Shown: positions 27,489 through 39,504 of the stretch, in pieces
Layout of the letters: each line of letters begins with the position of its first letter
How positions within the stretch are numbered: the first letter of the stretch is position 1
Virus record (IMG/VR): IMGVR_UViG_3300036835_000512
Location: 1 to 39,504 of that record
Source of the DNA: a virus
Length of the DNA: 39,504 nucleotides
Reading direction: 5' to 3' (one strand)
Program-made: the position numbers and the translations under genes
The notes under the pieces: model-generated
The model's database searches: none
The model's input: only the letters and a program-made list of their open reading frames with translations
What the model was told of the DNA's origin: nothing

Positions 27489-28046
27489 CTACGTGTAGGC
27501 AAACGCCAGTTGCTGCTCCTGCTCGGGCGCGAGCGCGGCGAAGTGACTGCGGCGCGCGCTCTCCTGCTCTGCCAGCCACTCGGCGAAGACCTTACTGTGC
27601 TTCGTCTTGTTACAGGTGCCGCAGAGCAGCCGGATGTTCCGCGCGTGCAGCCGCTCCCAGTCCTGGCGATGCTGCGGGGGCTCGCAGTGTTCGATCTGGA
27701 CGTCGCGCTCGTTCCGAAAGGCCATCCCGCACGCGAGGCAGAGCCCTTCCTCGCCCATCATAGCGCGGAGCCACGGCACGAGCGCGCGATAGTTCATCTG
27801 CACCATGAAGAACTCGGTGGTCTCGCCGGCCTTTCGGGCGGCGCGCCGGGCACGCTGCGTGATGATCCAGAGCGCGCGATCCGTGTTCTTCCGCAGGTCC
27901 TGGAGCCGATTCCTGCAAGACTTGCAGACCGGATCGAAGCGGGCCGTACTAGTACGGCCCACGCCCTTCACCTTGAAGTGGGAATGGTGCTTCCACTCCT
28001 GGCACTCTCGACACTGCCGCTCGCAGGGCCGCGGGATCGTGGTCAT
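27489..28046 (-). CDS. HNH nuclease with N-terminal zinc ribbon
   Basis: A 185-aa protein that starts in an ATGA overlap with the replication gene. Cys pairs C12xxC15 and C41xxC44 form a zinc ribbon. The nuclease core is CLACG (103-107), VQIEHCEPPQHRQDW with His120, then HARNIRLLCGTCNKTKHSK with C142, C145, Asn146 and His150. It could act in replication or recombination, or be a homing-type enzyme. A 20-bp perfect palindrome lies inside its gene (27941-27960). Confidence 0.86.
   Translation of the reverse strand: MTTIPRPCERQCRECQEWKHHSHFKVKGVGRTSTARFDPVCKSCRNRLQDLRKNTDRALWIITQRARRAARKAGETTEFFMVQMNYRALVPWLRAMMGEEGLCLACGMAFRNERDVQIEHCEPPQHRQDWERLHARNIRLLCGTCNKTKHSKVFAEWLAEQESARRSHFAALAPEQEQQLAFAYT
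27941..27960. repeat. perfect 20-bp palindrome inside HNH gene
   Basis: The ten bases GGGCCGTACT are followed directly by their reverse complement AGTACGGCCC. It encodes residues 29-35 (around GRTSTA) between the zinc ribbon and the linker. The palindrome stops exactly at the flanking bases (C on one side, A on the other). Confidence 0.9.
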
Positions 28047-28750
28047 GGGATCGCCTTTCGCTCGCGCGCCGCCATCGCCGCCGCGAGCAGATCGCCGAGC
28101 CGCATCGGATCGCCGCCCCGCACCCCCGCCACCGCGGCCGGCGGATGTCGTGCGCTGGGCATCTTCGGGTCCTGCGCGCGCGCGGCCGTTCGCGCCTCAC
28201 GCGCGCGCGCGCGCGCATCCGGATCCGGATCTTTTTCTTCTAGGGGAACGGGAACGGGTACGGGAGCGCGCGAAGTTGCGGCCCTGTTGCGCTGCAACAT
28301 AGGGCGCAACATCTCGCTTTCTTCTGTCTTTCCGGGCTCTTCCACCCGTCGGTTTGCGCGTGTTTTTTGCATGCGTGTTGCGCTATTTTTCCGCGCCGCG
28401 AGCACTTGCGCGCGGCTCGGCTGGTACTGGTCGAAGTCGTGGATCCGGTAGCCGCCGCGCACGGTTTCCCACAGGCCGGCGCGGACCATGATCGCCGGCC
28501 AGCCGGCCTCGCCGATGTCGCGGCCGGCAGCGCCGCACGTCTGGCCGAGCATCCAGCGACGGCGCTGCTCGTCGATGTACAGCACGCCGCGCGAGACGAA
28601 GCCCTCGGCCACGTCCTGCGGGATAAAGCCGTCCGTCAGGTTCCGGTTGGCGTAGCAGAGGGCTTGCAGCTGGAGCCACGCGCCCATCGCACCGACGCGC
28701 GCGATCTTCAGGTGATCCACAAAGCCGTCATCAATCCGCACCCACGGCAT
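28043..28750 (-). CDS. replication initiator-like protein with winged-helix N-terminus
   Basis: A 235-aa protein with AAAGGA upstream. MPWVRIDDGFVDHLKIARVGAMGAWLQLQALCYANRNLTDGFIP is the typical opening of phage replication organiser proteins (O/DnaD-like N-terminal winged helix), followed by WPAIMVRAGLWETVRGGYRIHDFDQYQPSRAQVLAARK. The middle is a low-complexity linker (APVPVPVPLEEKDPD) and the C-terminus is helical and charged. It would bind the origin and recruit host replication proteins. Repeats within the linker-coding DNA look like that origin. It overlaps the HNH gene by ATGA. Confidence 0.78.
   Translation of the reverse strand: MPWVRIDDGFVDHLKIARVGAMGAWLQLQALCYANRNLTDGFIPQDVAEGFVSRGVLYIDEQRRRWMLGQTCGAAGRDIGEAGWPAIMVRAGLWETVRGGYRIHDFDQYQPSRAQVLAARKNSATRMQKTRANRRVEEPGKTEESEMLRPMLQRNRAATSRAPVPVPVPLEEKDPDPDARARAREARTAARAQDPKMPSARHPPAAVAGVRGGDPMRLGDLLAAAMAARERKAIP
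28199..28216. repeat. alternating purine-pyrimidine (CG) tract
   Basis: An uninterrupted 18-base alternating stretch, mostly GC dinucleotides, inside the replication gene, where it encodes RARARA. Such tracts can adopt Z-form under supercoiling. It lies about 70 bases from the candidate origin repeats. Confidence 0.7.
28268..28392. other. candidate replication origin inside replication gene
   Basis: The 9-mer TGTTGCGCT occurs at 28285-28293 and 28376-28384, and its inverse GCGCAACA at 28304-28311. Further GTTGC and TTTGCGC near-copies occur at 28275 and 28352. T-runs (GTTTTTTGC, CTATTTTTCC) make this the most AT-rich part of the gene. Iterons plus an AT-rich region in the initiator's own linker recall lambda ori within gene O. 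Confidence 0.45.
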
Positions 28751-29854: not shown

Positions 29855-30072
29855 GCCGGCGGCTCCTTCCGCTCGGTACGCGCACCGGCCTTCACGACCC
29901 CAGTGCCACACAGTGGACACGGCGTGAGCCGCAACACACCCTGGCCGCCGCATGCGTGGCACGGAAAGGTGATGGTGCGGGATGTCGTCCACGTCGGGAC
30001 GTCGCCCGCGAGCCCCGACGGTCGGGACACGAGCCCCGTGCCAGCGCAGACGGGGCATATCTCATACGGCAT
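29851..30072 (-). CDS. DnaJ-type zinc-finger small protein
   Basis: A 73-aa protein with four paired Cys motifs: CPVCAGTG, CHACGGQG and CPLCGTG are DnaJ cysteine-rich (CxxCxGxG) repeats. No J-domain is present, so it is a stand-alone zinc module. Such proteins are frequent in phage early operons with unknown roles. It overlaps the RusA gene by 11 bases and the next gene by ATGA. Confidence 0.72.
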   Translation of the reverse strand: MPYEICPVCAGTGLVSRPSGLAGDVPTWTTSRTITFPCHACGGQGVLRLTPCPLCGTGVVKAGARTERKEPPA

Positions 30073-30577
30073 CGGACTTCTCCACGGCGTCGAGGGCGGC
30101 TTCGCCGGCGTGGCCCGCGAGGGCCGTCACGCGGATGCGCACGCCGATCGGCAGGCCGCCATCGGCATAGAGCTTGTGGAGCTCCTCGTCGACGATCTGC
30201 GCGTCGTCGACCCAGAGGATCCCCGTGCAGGCATCCTCGACGGCGCGCGCGAGCTTCAGGACGTCGGGCTTCGTCGTGGGAACCGTCGGGGCGCTCGGCA
30301 GCAGGCCCCGCTTGCCGTGGTGACCCTTCGGGCGCCGGACGAAGAACCACAGCGCGAGCCGCAGCGCGCCCCGATAGGCAGCGGCACGTCGGCCGAAGGC
30401 ATCCACCTTGGGTGCCGCCTCGGCGGCTGCGAGCCGAATCGCCGCGCGCCACTCGACGCCGCGCCGCCCACTCATGTCGGTGACCCCGACGTGGAGTTTG
30501 CCGTCGCGGCCACGAATCGGGAACGCGCGTTTGGAACCGCCGGGGACCGGCGCGCCGGGCACGAAGAACTCGATCAT
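30062..30577 (-). CDS. rusA: RusA-family Holliday junction resolvase
   Basis: A 171-aa protein from the ATG at 30577 (MIEFFVPGAPVPGGSKRAFPIRGRDGK). The core KPDVLKLARAVEDACTGILWVDDAQIVD aligns with the RusA catalytic region: Asp105 and the Asp124-Asp125 pair are kept, but the second Asp of the usual DxDN is Leu107, a variant that may alter metal binding or may be tolerated in this subfamily. It would resolve branched DNA before packaging. The frame is open upstream to 30754 through a zinc-ribbon gene. Confidence 0.87.
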   Translation of the reverse strand: MIEFFVPGAPVPGGSKRAFPIRGRDGKLHVGVTDMSGRRGVEWRAAIRLAAAEAAPKVDAFGRRAAAYRGALRLALWFFVRRPKGHHGKRGLLPSAPTVPTTKPDVLKLARAVEDACTGILWVDDAQIVDEELHKLYADGGLPIGVRIRVTALAGHAGEAALDAVEKSDAV

Positions 30578-30769: not shown

Positions 30770-31198
30770 CTATGCGGCGTCTTCAGCGCCGCCCAGCTGC
30801 GGCTCAGCGAGCACGGCGACCAGCGGGAGCACGAGCCGGAGAAACGTCGCGCGCCGGCCGGGCGTGAGCGTGTGGTACGCCCGGAGCAGCGTCGCGAGGC
30901 CGGGATCGGTCGGTGGCGCCGGGCGGCTCCCCAGCTCGGCGACGCAGGCGACGAGCGCGAGCGCGGTCGGCCCGACGGCGCCCTCGAGCTGCGGCAGGGC
31001 GGCAGCGAGCGTGTGGAGGACCTTCAAGACCGAGACCAGGGGGAGCTTCGCACACTCGCCGCTCTCCATGCGCGACACGAGGCCCTGGCTCGTGCCGGCG
31101 GCGGCCGCGAGCTCCTGCTGGCTGAGACCGAGGAGCTTCCGCGCCATGCGGACCTGGCGGCCGAGCGCGGCGACGAGCGCCGCCCAGTCCGGCGTCAT
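30770..31198 (-). CDS. XRE-family transcription regulator
   Basis: A 142-aa protein. The N-terminal helix-turn-helix is VRMARKLLGLSQQELAAAAGTSQGLVSRMESGECAKLPLVSVLKVLHTL (about residues 15-65), a Cro/CI-type domain. The C-terminal 70 residues are helical (LLRAYHTLTPGRRATFLRLVLPLVAVLAE), likely for dimerisation. It is the second gene of the early operon, about 550 bases from attP. It could be Cro-like or, depending on how the operon is transcribed in a lysogen, an immunity repressor; no SOS-cleavage protease domain is present. Confidence 0.85.
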   Translation of the reverse strand: MTPDWAALVAALGRQVRMARKLLGLSQQELAAAAGTSQGLVSRMESGECAKLPLVSVLKVLHTLAAALPQLEGAVGPTALALVACVAELGSRPAPPTDPGLATLLRAYHTLTPGRRATFLRLVLPLVAVLAEPQLGGAEDAA

Positions 31199-31404
31199 GC
31201 GTGGGGCCTCCAGCGCTTGTCCCGCGGCCGCTTCGGCGTGCGCGGCTCGTCGAGGCCGAGGAGCTCCTGGCCGCAGCGCCGGCAGCGCATGCGGGCCGGC
31301 GAACCGGCGCTGCTGCCTTGGTACTCGACGGCGCTCAGGGGATGCCGGCACGGCCGCCCCGCGCCCGCGCTCCGCGTCTCGCCCTTCGTCCGCCGCCGCC
31401 CCAT
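31195..31404 (-). CDS. small zinc-ribbon protein, first gene of early operon
   Basis: A 69-aa protein from the ATG at 31404 (MGRRRTKGETRSAGAGRPCRHPLSAVEYQ). A Cys-His pair and RCRRCGQELLGLDEP make a single zinc ribbon; the ends are basic. Overlaps the XRE gene by ATGA. An 8-bp-stem hairpin sits just ahead of the start codon. Confidence 0.62.
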   Translation of the reverse strand: MGRRRTKGETRSAGAGRPCRHPLSAVEYQGSSAGSPARMRCRRCGQELLGLDEPRTPKRPRDKRWRPHA

Positions 31405-31408
31405 CGTC

Positions 31409-31427
31409 GGGGCCGGCGGCCGGCCCC
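31409..31427 (-). promoter_or_regulatory. hairpin just upstream of early operon start
   Basis: GGGGCCGG and CCGGCCCC (8 bp, three-base loop) end four bases before the ATG at 31404 on the minus strand. There is no U-run, so translation control or a protein site is more likely than termination. Confidence 0.4.
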
Positions 31428-31600
31428 CGAGATGCGCCACCGGGAGGGAACGGGCCGGGGGCGGCTCGTTAGTCTGGTGACGCCTCTCGCCGCGTGCCGC
31501 CACCACCGTCCGCGGGCGGCGCGCCGGGCGGTGGCGTGGCGGCGAGCCGCTGTGCGCCACCGTCCGCGCCCGCCGTCCGCGCGCGGCGTGGCGGCCGTTC

Positions 31601-31621
31601 CTTCCACCGTTCTTCCACCGT
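31601..31621. repeat. arm-type direct repeat pair, early-operon side of attP
   Basis: CTTCCACCGT twice, separated by one T (11-base period, one helical turn). Identical in all 21 bases to 31845-31865 on the other side of the tRNA core, about 128 bases from the core. Fits an integrase arm-binding site. Confidence 0.6.
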
Positions 31622-31748
31622 CGCCTGCCGCACGGGGCCCGCAGGGGGCCGCACGGGCGGCACGCGCGATCCCCGTGATCGGTGCGCGTTTCCGGGCGCT
31701 TGTCCCGCAATCCGCCGCTCGCTGCCGCCCGCCGCCGCTGCGCCCATT

Positions 31749-31790
31749 CTGCTTAAAAGGCAGCTGCTCTACCGACTGAGCTAACGGCTC
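31749..31790 (-). other. attP: attP core: 5' half of a tRNA-Lys(UUU) gene
   Basis: On the minus strand the 42 bases read as GAGCCGT (acceptor), TA, a D-arm GCTCAGTCGGTAGAGC, A, and an anticodon arm GCTGC-CTTTTAA-GCAG with anticodon TTT. The T-arm and 3' end are missing, so it is not a working tRNA. Its place 21 bases after the integrase stop makes it the likely attP core matching a host tRNA-Lys. Carrying the 5' half, rather than the usual 3' half, is uncommon. Confidence 0.82.
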
Positions 31791-31811
31791 GCAGTGTGTG
31801 TTCTTGCCCAC

Positions 31812-33080
31812 TTACGCCTCAGAGGCAACGCCGGAGGCCGCCGGCTTCCACCGTTCTTCCACCGTTTTCTTCCGCACCGGCACGGCCTGGAGCGTGCCGC
31901 CCGCCGCAATCCGCCGCTGGCGCCGCCCGGCGCCCGCTGGCGCCCGCGGTGGCGTCGGCCCCACCAGCGCCTCCAGCTCGGCCCGCGCGGCGGCGAGCTT
32001 GCGCCGCAGCGCGTCCGGATTGCCGTGGTTGTAGTGCCGGAAGGTCTGCGTCGTCTTGTGGCCGGTCGTCGCCATGGCGTCGGCCTCGTCCATGCCGCCG
32101 GCCTTCATGTTCGTCGCCGCCGCGTGGCGCGTGGAGTGGAACGTGAACCCGGCCACCTTCCGGCCGTAGGCCAGACCGGCGCGCCGGCACGCCGCCCGCA
32201 CCGCCGTCTTCGGATCGCCGAGGCATCCCAGCTCGGCGCCGTCTCGGTCCCGGCCGGGCCGGCACCGTGGGCCGTGGAAGAGGTACGGGCATCCGAGCTT
32301 CCGGACGGCCATCGCGGCGCGCACGGCCGCCAGGACGGGGCCCTCGATCGGCACCACGTGCGGCTCCTCCTGCTTCGCCTCGGCCGGCGGCCACGTGATC
32401 GTCTCCCGGCCCGGCGTGAGGTCCACGTAGTCGCGCCGCGTGCGAAACAGCTGGCCGCGGCGGATGCCGAGCGCGTAGGCCACGACGAAGGCGTGCTGGA
32501 GATGCGCGGCCAGTTCCGCGAGGAGCCGCGCGGCCTCGCCCGGCGGGAGGTACTTGCCGCGCCGGCTCCCTTTCTCCGAGAGCCGCGGCACGACCGGGAT
32601 CGCGGTGAGCCGGCCCTTCGTCACGGCCCACCGGAGCGCCCGCCGGAGGTAGTTGCAGTAGCGGTTGATCGTCGGGTTCGTCATGCCGCTCCGCTTCCAC
32701 GCGGCCTGCATCGCCTCGACGTGATCGTGGTGCTCCGTCACCAGCGCCGCGGGATGGATGCGGCCGAGGTCGCGGCGCACGAGGTTGAGCGCGTGCTGCT
32801 TGTTGCGGTTCCACCGATCGTTCAGCCGGTAGTGGGACTCGAGCGCGTCGCACAGGTCGGCCATCGTGAGCTTGCCCGAGACGACCGTCTCGCCGCGCGC
32901 CGCCTTGAGCATCTTGTCGGCGCGGAGCAGCCGGGCCTTCTTGATGCTGGTCGTGCCGGTTGCCTCGGGCCCGAACGGCCGGCCGCGGATCGATCCCTTG
33001 ATGTAGAGCTTCGGCGATCGCGTGCCGGTGCCGGCGTCGACCGCCTGGTAGATCCCCTCCTCGACGCGGTGCCACGCCAT
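31812..33080 (-). CDS. int: tyrosine recombinase integrase
   Basis: A 422-aa protein from the ATG at 33080 in a TAATG overlap with the small RHH-like gene. Residues 1-65 are an arm-binding-like beta domain, and 70-160 a SAM-like core-binding domain (LTMADLCDALESHYR, NRYCNYLRRALRWAVTKGRL). The catalytic residues are Arg207 in ALGIRRGQL, Lys236 in AKQEEPHVVPI, His315xxArg318 in FTFHSTRHAA, His341 in ATTGHKTT and Tyr350 in FRHYNHG. The C-terminal 60 residues are an extra Pro/Arg-rich tail. It would integrate the phage at a tRNA-Lys gene, judged from the adjoining tRNA half. The frame extends to 33785 but overlaps two other genes there. Confidence 0.95.
   Translation of the reverse strand: MAWHRVEEGIYQAVDAGTGTRSPKLYIKGSIRGRPFGPEATGTTSIKKARLLRADKMLKAARGETVVSGKLTMADLCDALESHYRLNDRWNRNKQHALNLVRRDLGRIHPAALVTEHHDHVEAMQAAWKRSGMTNPTINRYCNYLRRALRWAVTKGRLTAIPVVPRLSEKGSRRGKYLPPGEAARLLAELAAHLQHAFVVAYALGIRRGQLFRTRRDYVDLTPGRETITWPPAEAKQEEPHVVPIEGPVLAAVRAAMAVRKLGCPYLFHGPRCRPGRDRDGAELGCLGDPKTAVRAACRRAGLAYGRKVAGFTFHSTRHAAATNMKAGGMDEADAMATTGHKTTQTFRHYNHGNPDALRRKLAAARAELEALVGPTPPRAPAGAGRRQRRIAAGGTLQAVPVRKKTVEERWKPAASGVASEA
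31845..31865. repeat. arm-type direct repeat pair, integrase side of attP
   Basis: Second exact 21-base copy, inside the last codons of the integrase gene, where it encodes TVEERWK. About 55 bases from the tRNA core. The integrase C-terminus thus doubles as a probable integrase binding site. Confidence 0.6.
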
Positions 33081-34090: not shown

Positions 34091-34149
34091 TTGCCAAGTG
34101 ACAAACGCTCATTTCATGGTTGACATCATCGCGCCAGTGGCCGTATGAG
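34091..34149 (+). promoter_or_regulatory. divergent control region with consensus -35 for plus operon
   Basis: A perfect TTGACA (34120-34125) and TATGAG (34144-34149) with 18-base spacing point to the plus operon. TTGCCA-AG-TGACAA (34091-34104) is a near-perfect inverted repeat upstream. The region lies between the RHH-like gene and the ATPase operon. Confidence 0.6.
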
Positions 34150-34198
34150 GGCCACCTCGTCGCGCACCGAGCTCGCGCGTCAGTTCCGGGGGCCCGCT

Positions 34199-34546
34199 AT
34201 GGGGAGGAGTCGTCTCGTGGCCGAGGCGGATCGTTTGCGGGCGGCCGTCGCCGCGGGAGCCTGGAAGCGCTCACTCGCTATCTGCCTCAAGTTGACCGCG
34301 GCCTTCACGGAACTCGTGAACGTGGCAGAGCCCCCCGGGCGTGCCGCCCTGACGGCTCGCGCCGGCACGAATCTGATTCCATTGACCGACCTGGCGCACG
34401 AGATGAATCGGGACCGCCGCACGGTCGAGCGCCGACTGACGGTGCGCGGCTGCGACATCCAGCGCTTCGGACGCGTCGCGCTGGTCGAACGTGACGTCGC
34501 GATCGCGGCGGTCAACTCCTTCGAGCGCGTCCGGAAGCTCGGATGA
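34199..34546 (+). CDS. HTH-containing small protein, first gene of ATPase operon
   Basis: A 115-aa protein from the ATG at 34199, about 43 bases after the predicted transcription start; an ATG at 34145 would overlap the -10 box and is rejected. The N-terminal half is helical. The second half, LIPLTDLAHEMNRDRRTVERRLTVRGCDIQRFGRVALVERDVAIAAV, resembles a MerR/excisionase-like winged helix. It is probably a regulator or initiator accessory protein. The stop overlaps the next gene by ATGA. Confidence 0.62.
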   Translation: MGRSRLVAEADRLRAAVAAGAWKRSLAICLKLTAAFTELVNVAEPPGRAALTARAGTNLIPLTDLAHEMNRDRRTVERRLTVRGCDIQRFGRVALVERDVAIAAVNSFERVRKLG

Positions 34547-34671
34547 TCGCGCTGCTCTGGGGCGTCTGCGCCGGCTTCGCTGCCGGCTTCCTGTGGGGAA
34601 AGGCCGCGACGCTGCGCCGGGTCCGGCGGCGGCTCGGCGGCCGGCTCGAACTCCCGCGGCAGACGGCATGA
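34543..34671 (+). CDS. 42-aa membrane peptide
   Basis: MIALLWGVCAGFAAGFLWG is a membrane helix, followed by a basic segment (KAATLRRVRRRLGGRLELP). It starts in an ATGA overlap with the previous gene and ends at the TGA at 34669-34671, just before the ATPase gene. It is short but well placed, with no empty space around it. Confidence 0.5.
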   Translation: MIALLWGVCAGFAAGFLWGKAATLRRVRRRLGGRLELPRQTA

Positions 34672-34684
34672 GCGAGGGGAGCCG

Positions 34685-35785
34685 ATGGGGATGCTGACGG
34701 CGCTCGGCACGGGCCAGGGGTATCTGAAGGCCGGGTTTCTCGGGTTCCAAAAGAGCGGCAAGACGTACACCGCGGCCGAGCTCGCCATCGGGGTCCGCCA
34801 GTTCTTCAAGCTCCCGGGGCCGATCGCCATGTTCGACACGGAAGGCGGCGCCGAATACGTCGCCGTCCGGATCAAGCGCGAGACCGGCCTCGACCTGGTC
34901 GGCGTCCGCGCCCGCGCCTTCGACGACATGGTGGCCTTCGGCCACGAGTGCGTGCAGGCCGGCGTCGCCGTGGCGATCGTCGACTCCGTCACGCATACGT
35001 GGCGCGAGCTCTGCGATGCGTATCTCAAGCAAGTGAACGAGCGGCGCGCCCTCTACGCGAAGGCGAAGGGCTGGAAGTTCACGCCGCAGCGCACGCTCGA
35101 GTTCCAGGACTGGGGCACCGTGAAGGGCCTGTGGAATGATCGCTGGACCGAGTTTTACTTGAATAGCCCGCTCCATCTGATCATCTGCGGCCGCGCCGGC
35201 TACGAGTATGACTTCGAGGAGACCGAGGAGGGCCGCAAGGAGCTCGTCAAGACCGGCGTCAAGATGCGGACCGAGGGCGAGTTCGGCTTCGAGCCCTCGC
35301 TGCTGGTCGAGATGGAGCGCACGCACGTCGGTGAGGGCCGCCGCGCGAAGCTCGGCCGGCTCGCCACGGTGATCGGCGACCGCTTCGGCGTGCTCGACGG
35401 CGCGACCTGCGTCAATCCGACGTTCAAGTTCTTTCTGCCGCACGTGCGGCTGCTGAAGCCCGGCGCGCATGCACCAGTGGATACTGCGGTCAAGACGGAT
35501 GCCGGCGTCGACGAGGAGGGCGGCGATGCGTGGGCCCGCGAGCGCCGCACGCGCCAGATCCTCGCCGAAGAGATCCAGGGCGAGCTCGTCGCCGCCTATC
35601 CCGGCCAGACGAGCCCGGAGAAGCAGGCGAAGGCGCGGCTACTCCACGAGCTGTTCGGCACGCGGTCCTGGACGGCGGTCGAGAGCCTCGACTCGGGCAA
35701 GCTGCGCGACGGGCTGCACCGGCTGCGCGATCGGCTCGCGACGATCGGCGCGCCACCGCCGCCCCAGGAAGGAGAGTCCCGATGA
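34685..35785 (+). CDS. RecA-like phage ATPase (Sak4/AAA_24 type)
   Basis: A 366-aa protein with GAGGGGAG upstream. Walker A is GFQKSGKT at residues 20-27; Walker B is AVAIVDSVTH with Asp100. AMFDTEGGAEYV, FQDWGTVKGLWNDRW and LHLIICGRAGYEYDF fit the single-ATPase-domain phage recombinase family (Sak4-like), which loads or anneals single-stranded DNA. The C-terminal 80 residues are helical (LLHELFGTRSWTAVESLDSGKLRDGLHRLRDRL). A role in recombination-dependent replication is likely but not proven by sequence. Confidence 0.83.
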   Translation: MGMLTALGTGQGYLKAGFLGFQKSGKTYTAAELAIGVRQFFKLPGPIAMFDTEGGAEYVAVRIKRETGLDLVGVRARAFDDMVAFGHECVQAGVAVAIVDSVTHTWRELCDAYLKQVNERRALYAKAKGWKFTPQRTLEFQDWGTVKGLWNDRWTEFYLNSPLHLIICGRAGYEYDFEETEEGRKELVKTGVKMRTEGEFGFEPSLLVEMERTHVGEGRRAKLGRLATVIGDRFGVLDGATCVNPTFKFFLPHVRLLKPGAHAPVDTAVKTDAGVDEEGGDAWARERRTRQILAEEIQGELVAAYPGQTSPEKQAKARLLHELFGTRSWTAVESLDSGKLRDGLHRLRDRLATIGAPPPPQEGESR

Positions 35786-36861: not shown

Positions 36862-37575
36862 CTAGGGACGCGGCGTGCAAAAGACGCTGACGACCATCGT
36901 CAGCGTGCCGGTTTTCGTGAAGTCCTTGATCACGCCGAGCGCCGCCTCCCAGCCGAGCGGCGGCTCCTCGGTCGTCGGGCCAGACTCCAAGGCGTGAAAC
37001 TTCGTCTGATCATCCGGGTTGCTGACGATGCCGCGCACGCCGCCGCCCGTGACCTGCTGGTCCGGATCGCAGGGGATGGTCAGCGTGAGCACTTCGCCCG
37101 TATCGGGTCCGATGCTGCTGCCGACAGCATCGGAGCGCACCACGATCGCCGCGGTGCTCCCGGCGCCGGTCGGCCCAGTCGCTCCGGTCACGCCCGTCGC
37201 GCCCATCGCGCCGGGGTTGCCGGCCGGACCTGGCGGCCCGATCGCGCCGGCTGGGCCCGCACCGCCCGGCGGCCCTCCCGCGCCGGCCGGGCCGGTGGCA
37301 CCCGTGGGACCGACGGGTCCTTGCGGGCCTTGGGCACCGGTCGGCCCGGCGGGCGGCGCGACGGCCTCCGGGCAGACGGCGAGCGGGTCGGCACGCCGGC
37401 ACGCGGCCTCGACGCCGCCCGCGCATTGCCGCGCCGCCCGGCCGGTGAGCGTGCTGCAGAGGCTCGCCACGCGCGCCTCGCAGACCGCGCGGCAGAGCGC
37501 CGCCTTCGAGGCGACGGTGGCGGCCGGCGCCGTGGGACTGGCGAGCGCGGCGGCGATCCAGAACGCCAGCATCAC
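36862..37575 (-). CDS. secreted collagen-like protein with Cys-rich head
   Basis: A 237-aa protein. [22 protein letters not shown] is a plausible Sec signal peptide. Residues 25-70 contain six Cys ([36 protein letters not shown]). Residues 75-145 are collagen-like Gly-X-Y triplets ([19 protein letters not shown] and others), and a C-terminal globular domain follows with two Cys ([16 protein letters not shown]). Collagen-like repeats are common in virion fibres, but a signal peptide implies export during infection or lysogeny. Coupled by ATGA to the barrel-like lipoprotein gene. Function unknown. Confidence 0.78.
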
Positions 37576-38783
37576 AAGGAGAGCCCGAGGCCGACCGTCG
37601 GTACGACGCCCACCGGACGGAGACCGACCGCGGCGTTCAGCGCGTAGACGCCGTTCGCGAAGACCACGATCCCCGGCGGGATGATCGCGCGGAGACCGAA
37701 CGAGAGATTGAACTGGTCGAGCCGGCTCGACCAGCCGACGCCGAGCAGCGGATCGGCGCGGATGCCGCCGCTCGGCGTGACGACCAGGACGTTGGTATCG
37801 TTCGGCGCGAAGGCGGTATCCAGCTGGCTCGTGCCGAGGAACTCGACGATCGCGGCGAGCCGCTGCGGCCAGAGGACGACCGATCCCGAGACGCCGTAGA
37901 GCGCCTGCGACTGGATCGAGTGGGTGACGTTGAAGTTAAGCGCGGCATGCGCGTCGACCTCGGCCGTGCCGTGCCACAGCGGCAGCGACAGATCGATCCC
38001 CGGCGTGATCCAGTACGCGCCGGTCCCGTGGAGCTCCGCCGGGTCGCCGGTCGGAAACTGGATCTCGAGCGTGAGCGCCGCGCGCCACGGCTGCGGGATC
38101 GGTAGCCGGTACTTGCCACGGACCGTCACGTCGCCGATGCCCGTGGCGTCGACCGCCGCGATCGTGCCGCCGAGCGTCGGGCCGTCGACCGGCATGAACG
38201 CGCCGCCGGCCGGCCCCGTCGCCTGGACGACGCGCGCTCCGACCGCGCAGTTGAGCCGCGTCGCGAGCACCGGCAGGACGACGCTGAGATCGACGGTGTC
38301 CGTGATCCCGTGACTTACGGCGACCGCCGCCGCCCAGACGTGCAGATCGAGATGGTAGCGCAGCCGGATGCCGCGCAGCGCCGGACTAGTTGGATCGCCG
38401 GTCGGCGTCCGTTCCGCGAGCACGGGCGGCGCGAAGCGGCCGAGCTCGGTGAACGGCTGGCCGAACAGCGTCGCGTCGGCCAGCGGGCGCTCGGCGATGA
38501 CGTTGACGTTCGTAACGCCGGCGCCGAGCGTCGCGGCGTGATCGAGAAAGATCGGGCCGAGCACCGCCATGCTCGAATCGATCGCTGCCGTCCCGGCGAG
38601 CGCCGCGCTACTCGCCGACGTGAGACTCGGCGCCGTGACGAGCGTCGCGACATGCGCCGCGAAGTTCGTGAAGGCCGGCGCCGGCCGGAGATCGACGCGC
38701 TCTTGCGCGTCGCCGAGCACGCCGCGGAGCGTGCGCGCGTCGAGAACCGGCGCGCAGCTAGCGAGCACGAGCCACGCCGCCAC
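37572..38783 (-). CDS. outer-membrane beta-barrel-like lipoprotein (Phenol_MetA_deg-like)
   Basis: A 403-aa protein from a GTG at 38783; a CTG at 38792 directly after GGAGG would give a complete signal, [19 protein letters not shown] is a lipobox. The body has alternating strands, with landmarks of the MetA-pathway outer-membrane family: [77 protein letters not shown] and a C-terminus ending in strands ([11 protein letters not shown]). An envelope barrel in a phage is unusual; receptor masking or lysogenic conversion is possible. Confidence 0.72.
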
Positions 38784-39248: not shown

Positions 39249-39504
39249 CTAGGTCGTCAACACCATGCTTTGCGTGTTCCCGAGCGTATCGTGCGCCGGA
39301 CTCGTCGTCGCGAGGTTCGCCGCGTTGAGCGCGGTGAAGGCGCGGATGACGCCGTAGTAGTTCGCGTAAAAGTAGCCGTCGGCACTCCAATCGCCGGGAG
39401 TCCGCGCGCCCTCGGCAATGATCCACCCGCCCTCGTTCGCCTCGACCGTCGGTCCGACGAGCGACGCGTTCACGTGGATGCGGATCACCCGGAGCTCACA
39501 CCCG
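39249..39504 (-). CDS. tail fibre/spike protein, C-terminal part (same gene as 1-1249)
   Basis: This is the 3' end of the gene that starts at 1249, seen again because the window overlaps itself. The visible C-terminus runs from GCELRVIRIHVNASLV to LGNTQSMVLTT and stops with TAG at 39249-39251. A GTG at 39488 is an internal Val codon and not a start, since the frame stays open upstream in the left copy. The next gene (hypothetical protein starting at 39229) follows after 19 bases. Confidence 0.85.
   Translation of the reverse strand, partial: GCELRVIRIHVNASLVGPTVEANEGGWIIAEGARTPGDWSADGYFYANYYGVIRAFTALNAANLATTSPAHDTLGNTQSMVLTT
39272..39504. repeat. terminal direct repeat, right copy (circle junction)
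   Basis: Second copy of bases 1-233. Joining the copies makes the tail-fibre gene continuous from its ATG at 1249 through base 1 to the TAG at 39249-39251, which is good evidence that the circularisation is real. Confidence 0.93.

Follow-up and report, generated by a model that had tools for sequence, protein, structure and literature searches.

A phage attP carrying the 5' half of tRNA-Lys(UUU), and the promoter arrangement that integration through it would create

The window analysed here, a viral DNA of 39,504 nt, very probably contains the attP of a temperate phage with a lambda-type integrase that exchanges strands within the tRNA-Lys(UUU) anticodon loop; of the two polarities it is the rarer, with the phage carrying the 5' half of the tRNA. 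Integration would put the tRNA under phage-side DNA and a host promoter before a phage operon, and transcription reading into that operon from the host is most likely incidental. The phage is temperate and complete with a contractile tail, and has terminase, portal, capsid-protease and tail sheath genes. The two ends of the contig overlap (1-233 matching 39272-39504, with one mismatch over 233 bp), which gives a genome of ~39.27 kb in a free circular or permuted form; the site is therefore attP and not attL or attR. Two genes at 34145-35785 lie on the plus strand, opposite to almost all others, and the second of these matches phrog_1366 and, weakly, an AAA domain. A protein encoded at 37572-38783 on the minus strand scores above the Pfam cut-off for Phenol_MetA_deg, which is unexpected on a phage.

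Attachment site and integrase

The minus-strand sequence of 31790-31749, GAGCCGTTAGCTCAGTCGGTAGAGCAGCTGCCTTTTAAGCAG, corresponds to nucleotides 1-42 of tRNA-Lys(UUU), a 5' half that includes the anticodon stem up to its 3' side. All 42 nt agree with the tRNA-Lys in the public genome L003, and 42 of 43 with that in the public genome L002; beyond the anticodon loop, the tRNA homology extends for only 4 nt more. Neither a second copy of the core nor the tRNA 3' half is present anywhere in the window, and ARAGORN detected no full tRNA there. The adjoining gene (31812-33080, minus strand) encodes a tyrosine recombinase of 422 aa with the catalytic R, HxxR, H and Y motifs, matching phrog_1 (3.4e-40) and PF00589. 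Its stop codon lies 21 bp from the tRNA 5' end, and the gene runs in the same direction as the tRNA half.

Putative arm-type pairs were located on both sides of the core, as in the attP of lambda-type bivalent integrases. The pair on the operon side occupies 31601-31621, with TTCCACCGT at 31602 and 31613; the other lies within the 3' end of the integrase gene at 31845-31865 (CTTCCACCGT, 11-bp spacing), with TTCCACCGT at 31846 and 31857. These tandem TTCCACCGT pairs are absent from the rest of the contig and look like integrase arm sites (paired 9-mers). Comparable paired repeats occur at both ends of an integrated element in genome G101 (CTCCACAGC) and in L009 (TGGTGACAT), both described below. 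The exact 42-nt tRNA match, the adjoining integrase and the flanking unique TTCCACCGT pairs together place the core beyond chance, and the region 31790-31749 reads as a lambda-type attP with exchange predicted in the anticodon loop. The loop itself (CTTTTAA, 31753-31759, minus strand) is likely the 7-bp strand-exchange (overlap) region, judging from the point at which identity to the G101 element breaks off and from the anticodon loop being a known integration sublocation within tRNA genes (PMC8371274).

Integrated relatives and the rebuilt tRNA

Relatives of the integrase were sought in ~395 genomes, all draft assemblies, of the phylum group around G001 (Candidatus Binatota). One close relative emerged from that search, in G101, with 47% identity to the window integrase. 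An intact tRNA-Lys(UUU) follows its gene on the same strand after 87 bp, and 10,267 bp upstream there is a displaced 5' tRNA half, likewise in this orientation. The core that this element duplicates, GAGCCGTTAGCTCAGTCGGTAGAGCAGCTGCCTTTTAAG, comprises 39 nt and equals the first 39 nt of the window core, to just past the anticodon loop. Three further 5'-type islands with more distant integrases were mapped, at tRNA-Leu in G053 (29.6 kb), tRNA-Arg in G345 (6.5 kb) and tRNA-Lys in G094 (9.2 kb). A catalytic tyrosine recombinase adjoined by an exact, co-directional 5' tRNA segment, as in the window, characterizes the 5'-tDNA-fragment (SIT) elements, and their integrated form, with integrase, rebuilt tRNA and a displaced 5' fragment at the far end, is present in these four relatives. 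The integrase is the sole phage gene common to the window phage and the relatives that supply the junctions. For two other co-directional integrase-tRNA pairs surveyed (L164 and L200) the displaced fragment was not found, and three other such pairs sit at contig edges.

An earlier note on this DNA, made from the sequence alone, had proposed that attP holds the 5' half of tRNA-Lys and that the tRNA half, the integrase and the early operon point the same way. Both proposals hold, with the exact 42-nt tRNA-Lys(UUU) match beside the integrase and all three on the minus strand. The junctions that it predicted are seen in relatives of the window integrase, in G101 with its 39-nt core and in the three further islands, and its claim that the restored tRNA loses its own upstream DNA is borne out in the mapped relatives.

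In the same phylum group, a search with the major capsid protein for a prophage gave distant matches only (≤36% identity). The genome searches thus yielded relatives of the integrase and neither a lysogen of the window phage nor its true host; among viral contigs and phage records no relatives of the integrase were found, and no viral contig matched the tRNA half exactly. The missing lysogen would suit the idea that the tRNA fragment is a relic or a transduced scrap with no working attachment site, but we regard this as highly improbable: the core sits between the integrase gene and the P arm among paired arm-type repeats, the catalytic residues are intact, the 42 nt have not decayed, and an integrated relative uses the same core.

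Searched with a tRNA-Lys pattern allowing ≤3 mismatches, G101 (44 tRNAs) and G094 (43 tRNAs) each yielded the rebuilt gene as their only tRNA-Lys carrying a UUU anticodon. Unless a further copy escaped the search, we therefore infer that this gene has to be transcribed from within element DNA. Likewise, integration of the window phage would rebuild an intact tRNA-Lys just downstream of the integrase gene with phage DNA upstream, so that the tRNA would have to be transcribed from the phage side. These junctions document a rarely examined polarity, in which the host's apparently only tRNA-Lys(UUU) comes to depend on the DNA of a mobile element.

Several minor features were noticed around these elements. 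Just outside the attR of the G101 island lies a member of the window XRE gene family (42% identical; L056, 2958-3302; G101:C3:300204-300548), convergent with the rebuilt tRNA; it is perhaps the remnant of another element. A pattern TTGCMM-N15-GATAAC-N19, noticed by eye only, flanks the G101 element at either end, and no claim is attached to it. In L060, L094, L163, L164 and L198, a TAA[CG]TNATTGAWWT motif precedes rebuilt tRNAs of different isotypes by 20-25 nt.

Control of the adjoining operon

At the other end, integration would leave the host tRNA promoter and the orphan 5' half facing the early operon across ~345 bp of P-arm DNA. The first gene downstream of attP (31195-31404, minus strand) encodes a small zinc-ribbon-like protein with a CxxC motif, which has no Pfam match and is conserved in L009 and L007. 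It is followed on the same strand by genes for an XRE-type HTH regulator (30770-31198; HTH_3, 1.7e-8), 90% identical in L009 and L014 with no relatives in phage records, for a RusA-like Holliday junction resolvase (30062-30577), 93% identical in L009 and L016, and for a replication initiation protein (28043-28750; phrog_2447). The attP is intergenic, ~345 bp from the zinc-ribbon gene and ~550 bp from the XRE gene.

The earlier note had suggested that this layout could tie XRE expression to the integrated state. Read as a functional switch, the host tRNA-Lys promoter would transcribe the operon in the lysogen, and XRE expression would report or enforce integration. The operon and the orphan tRNA half are indeed co-directional, with no recognisable sigma-70-like promoter in a scan near attP, the operon and the restored tRNA, and no U-tract terminator between core and operon. 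A precedent exists in ICEKp1, where a host tRNA promoter drives an element gene, int, only when the element is integrated (PMC13023037). The comparison with L009 argues against such a switch. L009 and the window share 92% DNA identity over a stretch that begins ~68 bp before the zinc-ribbon start and takes in rusA, and the operon leader (31405-31472, minus strand) is conserved between them though the att/int module beyond it has been replaced. There, L009 has an unrelated integrase and, on the opposite strand, the 3' half of tRNA-Lys(CUU) flanked by paired repeats, with the identity block again on the integrase side; L007 carries the 3' half of tRNA-Lys(UUU) in the same layout. No host tRNA promoter would face the operon in integrated L009. 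The operon can therefore do without integration behind a tRNA promoter, and the elements that control it probably reside in the conserved leader, close to it, or at another place in the phage. In addition, rusA and the replication gene lie downstream on the same strand, so that replication functions would be expressed in a lysogen under constitutive read-in. The proposed tie between XRE expression and the integrated state is thus unsupported, and a switch of this kind seems improbable to us. The window phage and L009 amount to a natural experiment that separates att polarity from operon control. Host read-in would most likely be an incidental by-product of an int/att module swap, tolerated or blocked, with no evolved XRE switch behind it.

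Terminators at the displaced 5' half

Hairpins next to the displaced cores were tested by folding against shuffled sequences, since a plain terminator scan had missed hairpins with long loops. In G053 (-20.5 kcal/mol) and G345 (-27.6 kcal/mol), a long hairpin with a T-rich tail starts 0-3 nt after the displaced core, and none of 20 shuffles was as good. G094 shows a weak hairpin only, and no such hairpin is present in G101 or in the window. At the six far junctions of 3'-type islands, none of the cores is abutted by such a hairpin. The contrast between two of four 5'-type and none of six 3'-type islands is small and suggestive only. Inside each of the four 5'-type islands, the first genes have the direction of the tRNA, so that host read-in would be in the sense direction. 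The stems in L083 (G053:C14) and L141 (G345:C35) are perfect and long and lie just inside the displaced 5' halves, as if stopping the orphaned host tRNA promoter.

These terminators further weaken the tie between XRE expression and integration. The earlier note had asked whether a promoter or terminator between the core and 31404 isolates the operon: the window itself, with neither a sigma-70-like promoter nor a U-tract terminator recognised, favours its model, and the strong hairpins abutting the core in the two islands speak against it. They also raise the alternative that the junction is insulated, with GC-rich hairpins or Rho-dependent termination in 31472-31745 blocking host read-in, so that integration would have no effect on the operon. 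The islands in which terminators abut the core are of lower GC, and the window region between core and operon, at 76% GC, folds strongly, yet not more strongly than its shuffles (z -0.96); with the U-tract terminator lacking in both the window and G101 and the contrast among islands so small, we consider this insulation a real possibility, albeit the less likely case. Should a terminator just inside the core prove to be general among 5'-type islands, this would be a simple, testable rule for handling an orphaned tRNA promoter.

It may be proposed further that 5'-type elements represent a distinct solution, in which one end brings a substitute promoter for an essential tRNA present in single copy and the other end a terminator facing the orphaned host promoter, and that in the window phage, which is of high GC and has no recognisable terminator, transcription from the host promoter reaches the XRE operon and so links it to integration. 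We think it unlikely that this extended proposal is correct, and favour incidental read-in.

Comparison with known systems

The 5'-tDNA islands of the Islander collection resemble the window in their tyrosine integrase, displaced 5' fragment and tRNA rebuilt at the integrase end (PMC4383910); they are integrated, whereas the window attP was read from a free phage genome, and the available portion of that report does not take up their promoters. The SIT shape likewise has the integrase before the tRNA in the same orientation; in the text accessible to us, that work covers shapes and integrase autoregulation (PMC2951348), whereas our analysis covers the far end and its terminators.

In pTN3-like archaeal integrases, attP is also a 5' tRNA half, and the rebuilt tRNA, deprived of its promoter, is described as being expressed from that of the integrase (PMC5495485, PMC8371274). 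Integration of those elements disrupts the integrase gene, whereas the window integrase would stay whole, with the core 21 bp outside its stop codon; the window integrase is thus not of the pTN3-like type, its attP lying outside the gene.

ICEKp1 is like the switch model in that an element gene comes to lie downstream of a host tRNA promoter upon integration. It differs in being 3'-type, in that the gene is int, in that the tRNA keeps its own promoter, and in having been shown experimentally, the window layout being read from sequence. Its integration displaces the tRNA terminator, the host tRNA promoter transcribes int, and stem-loops attenuate this transcription (PMC13023037). The view that the usual 3'-half layout avoids host promoters, also put forward in the earlier note, is therefore incorrect. 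The peculiarity of the present case lies in which phage end comes to face the host promoter and in the loss of that promoter by the tRNA itself.

In tRNA-dependent lysogeny, a phage integrates at an essential tRNA-Lys(UUU) and the host thereby becomes dependent on phage DNA (PMC10865867), as proposed for the window phage. That system has a ~10 bp core, does not rebuild the tRNA and relies on a phage-encoded one, whereas the 42-nt core of the window would rebuild it and the window holds no tRNA gene; this mode was rejected for the window phage on these grounds. Integration-dependent immunity of the mycobacteriophage BPs type, with attP inside a repressor gene that integration restructures, was rejected because the window attP is intergenic.

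Occurrence of the two polarities

The 5'-half attP layout is already known, but rare. Our first survey, which took tRNAs ≤700 bp downstream of an integrase, returned 52 convergent and 3 co-directional pairs; the second returned 29 and 6, a rate biased by seeding with a 5'-type integrase. The published figures agree: a 5' tDNA fragment is present in 159 of 3919 Islander islands (PMC4383910), and SIT and OD shapes together make up <8% of 1273 tRNA-integrase pairs (PMC2951348). A tree of 54 integrases requires three label changes for the 5' type, at least two of them forced by well-supported branches; polarity therefore flips again and again. Wherever junctions were mapped, the identity block is situated between exchange point and integrase gene, and only the orientation of the tRNA varies. 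The window phage would share this arrangement with ordinary tRNA-targeting elements, and would carry a 5' half because attB is used in reverse orientation. In G128:C18 (L243 with L059), two displaced tRNA-Leu 3' fragments, apparently from tandem insertions at one tRNA, lie 6.0 and 3.5 kb upstream of the integrase gene.
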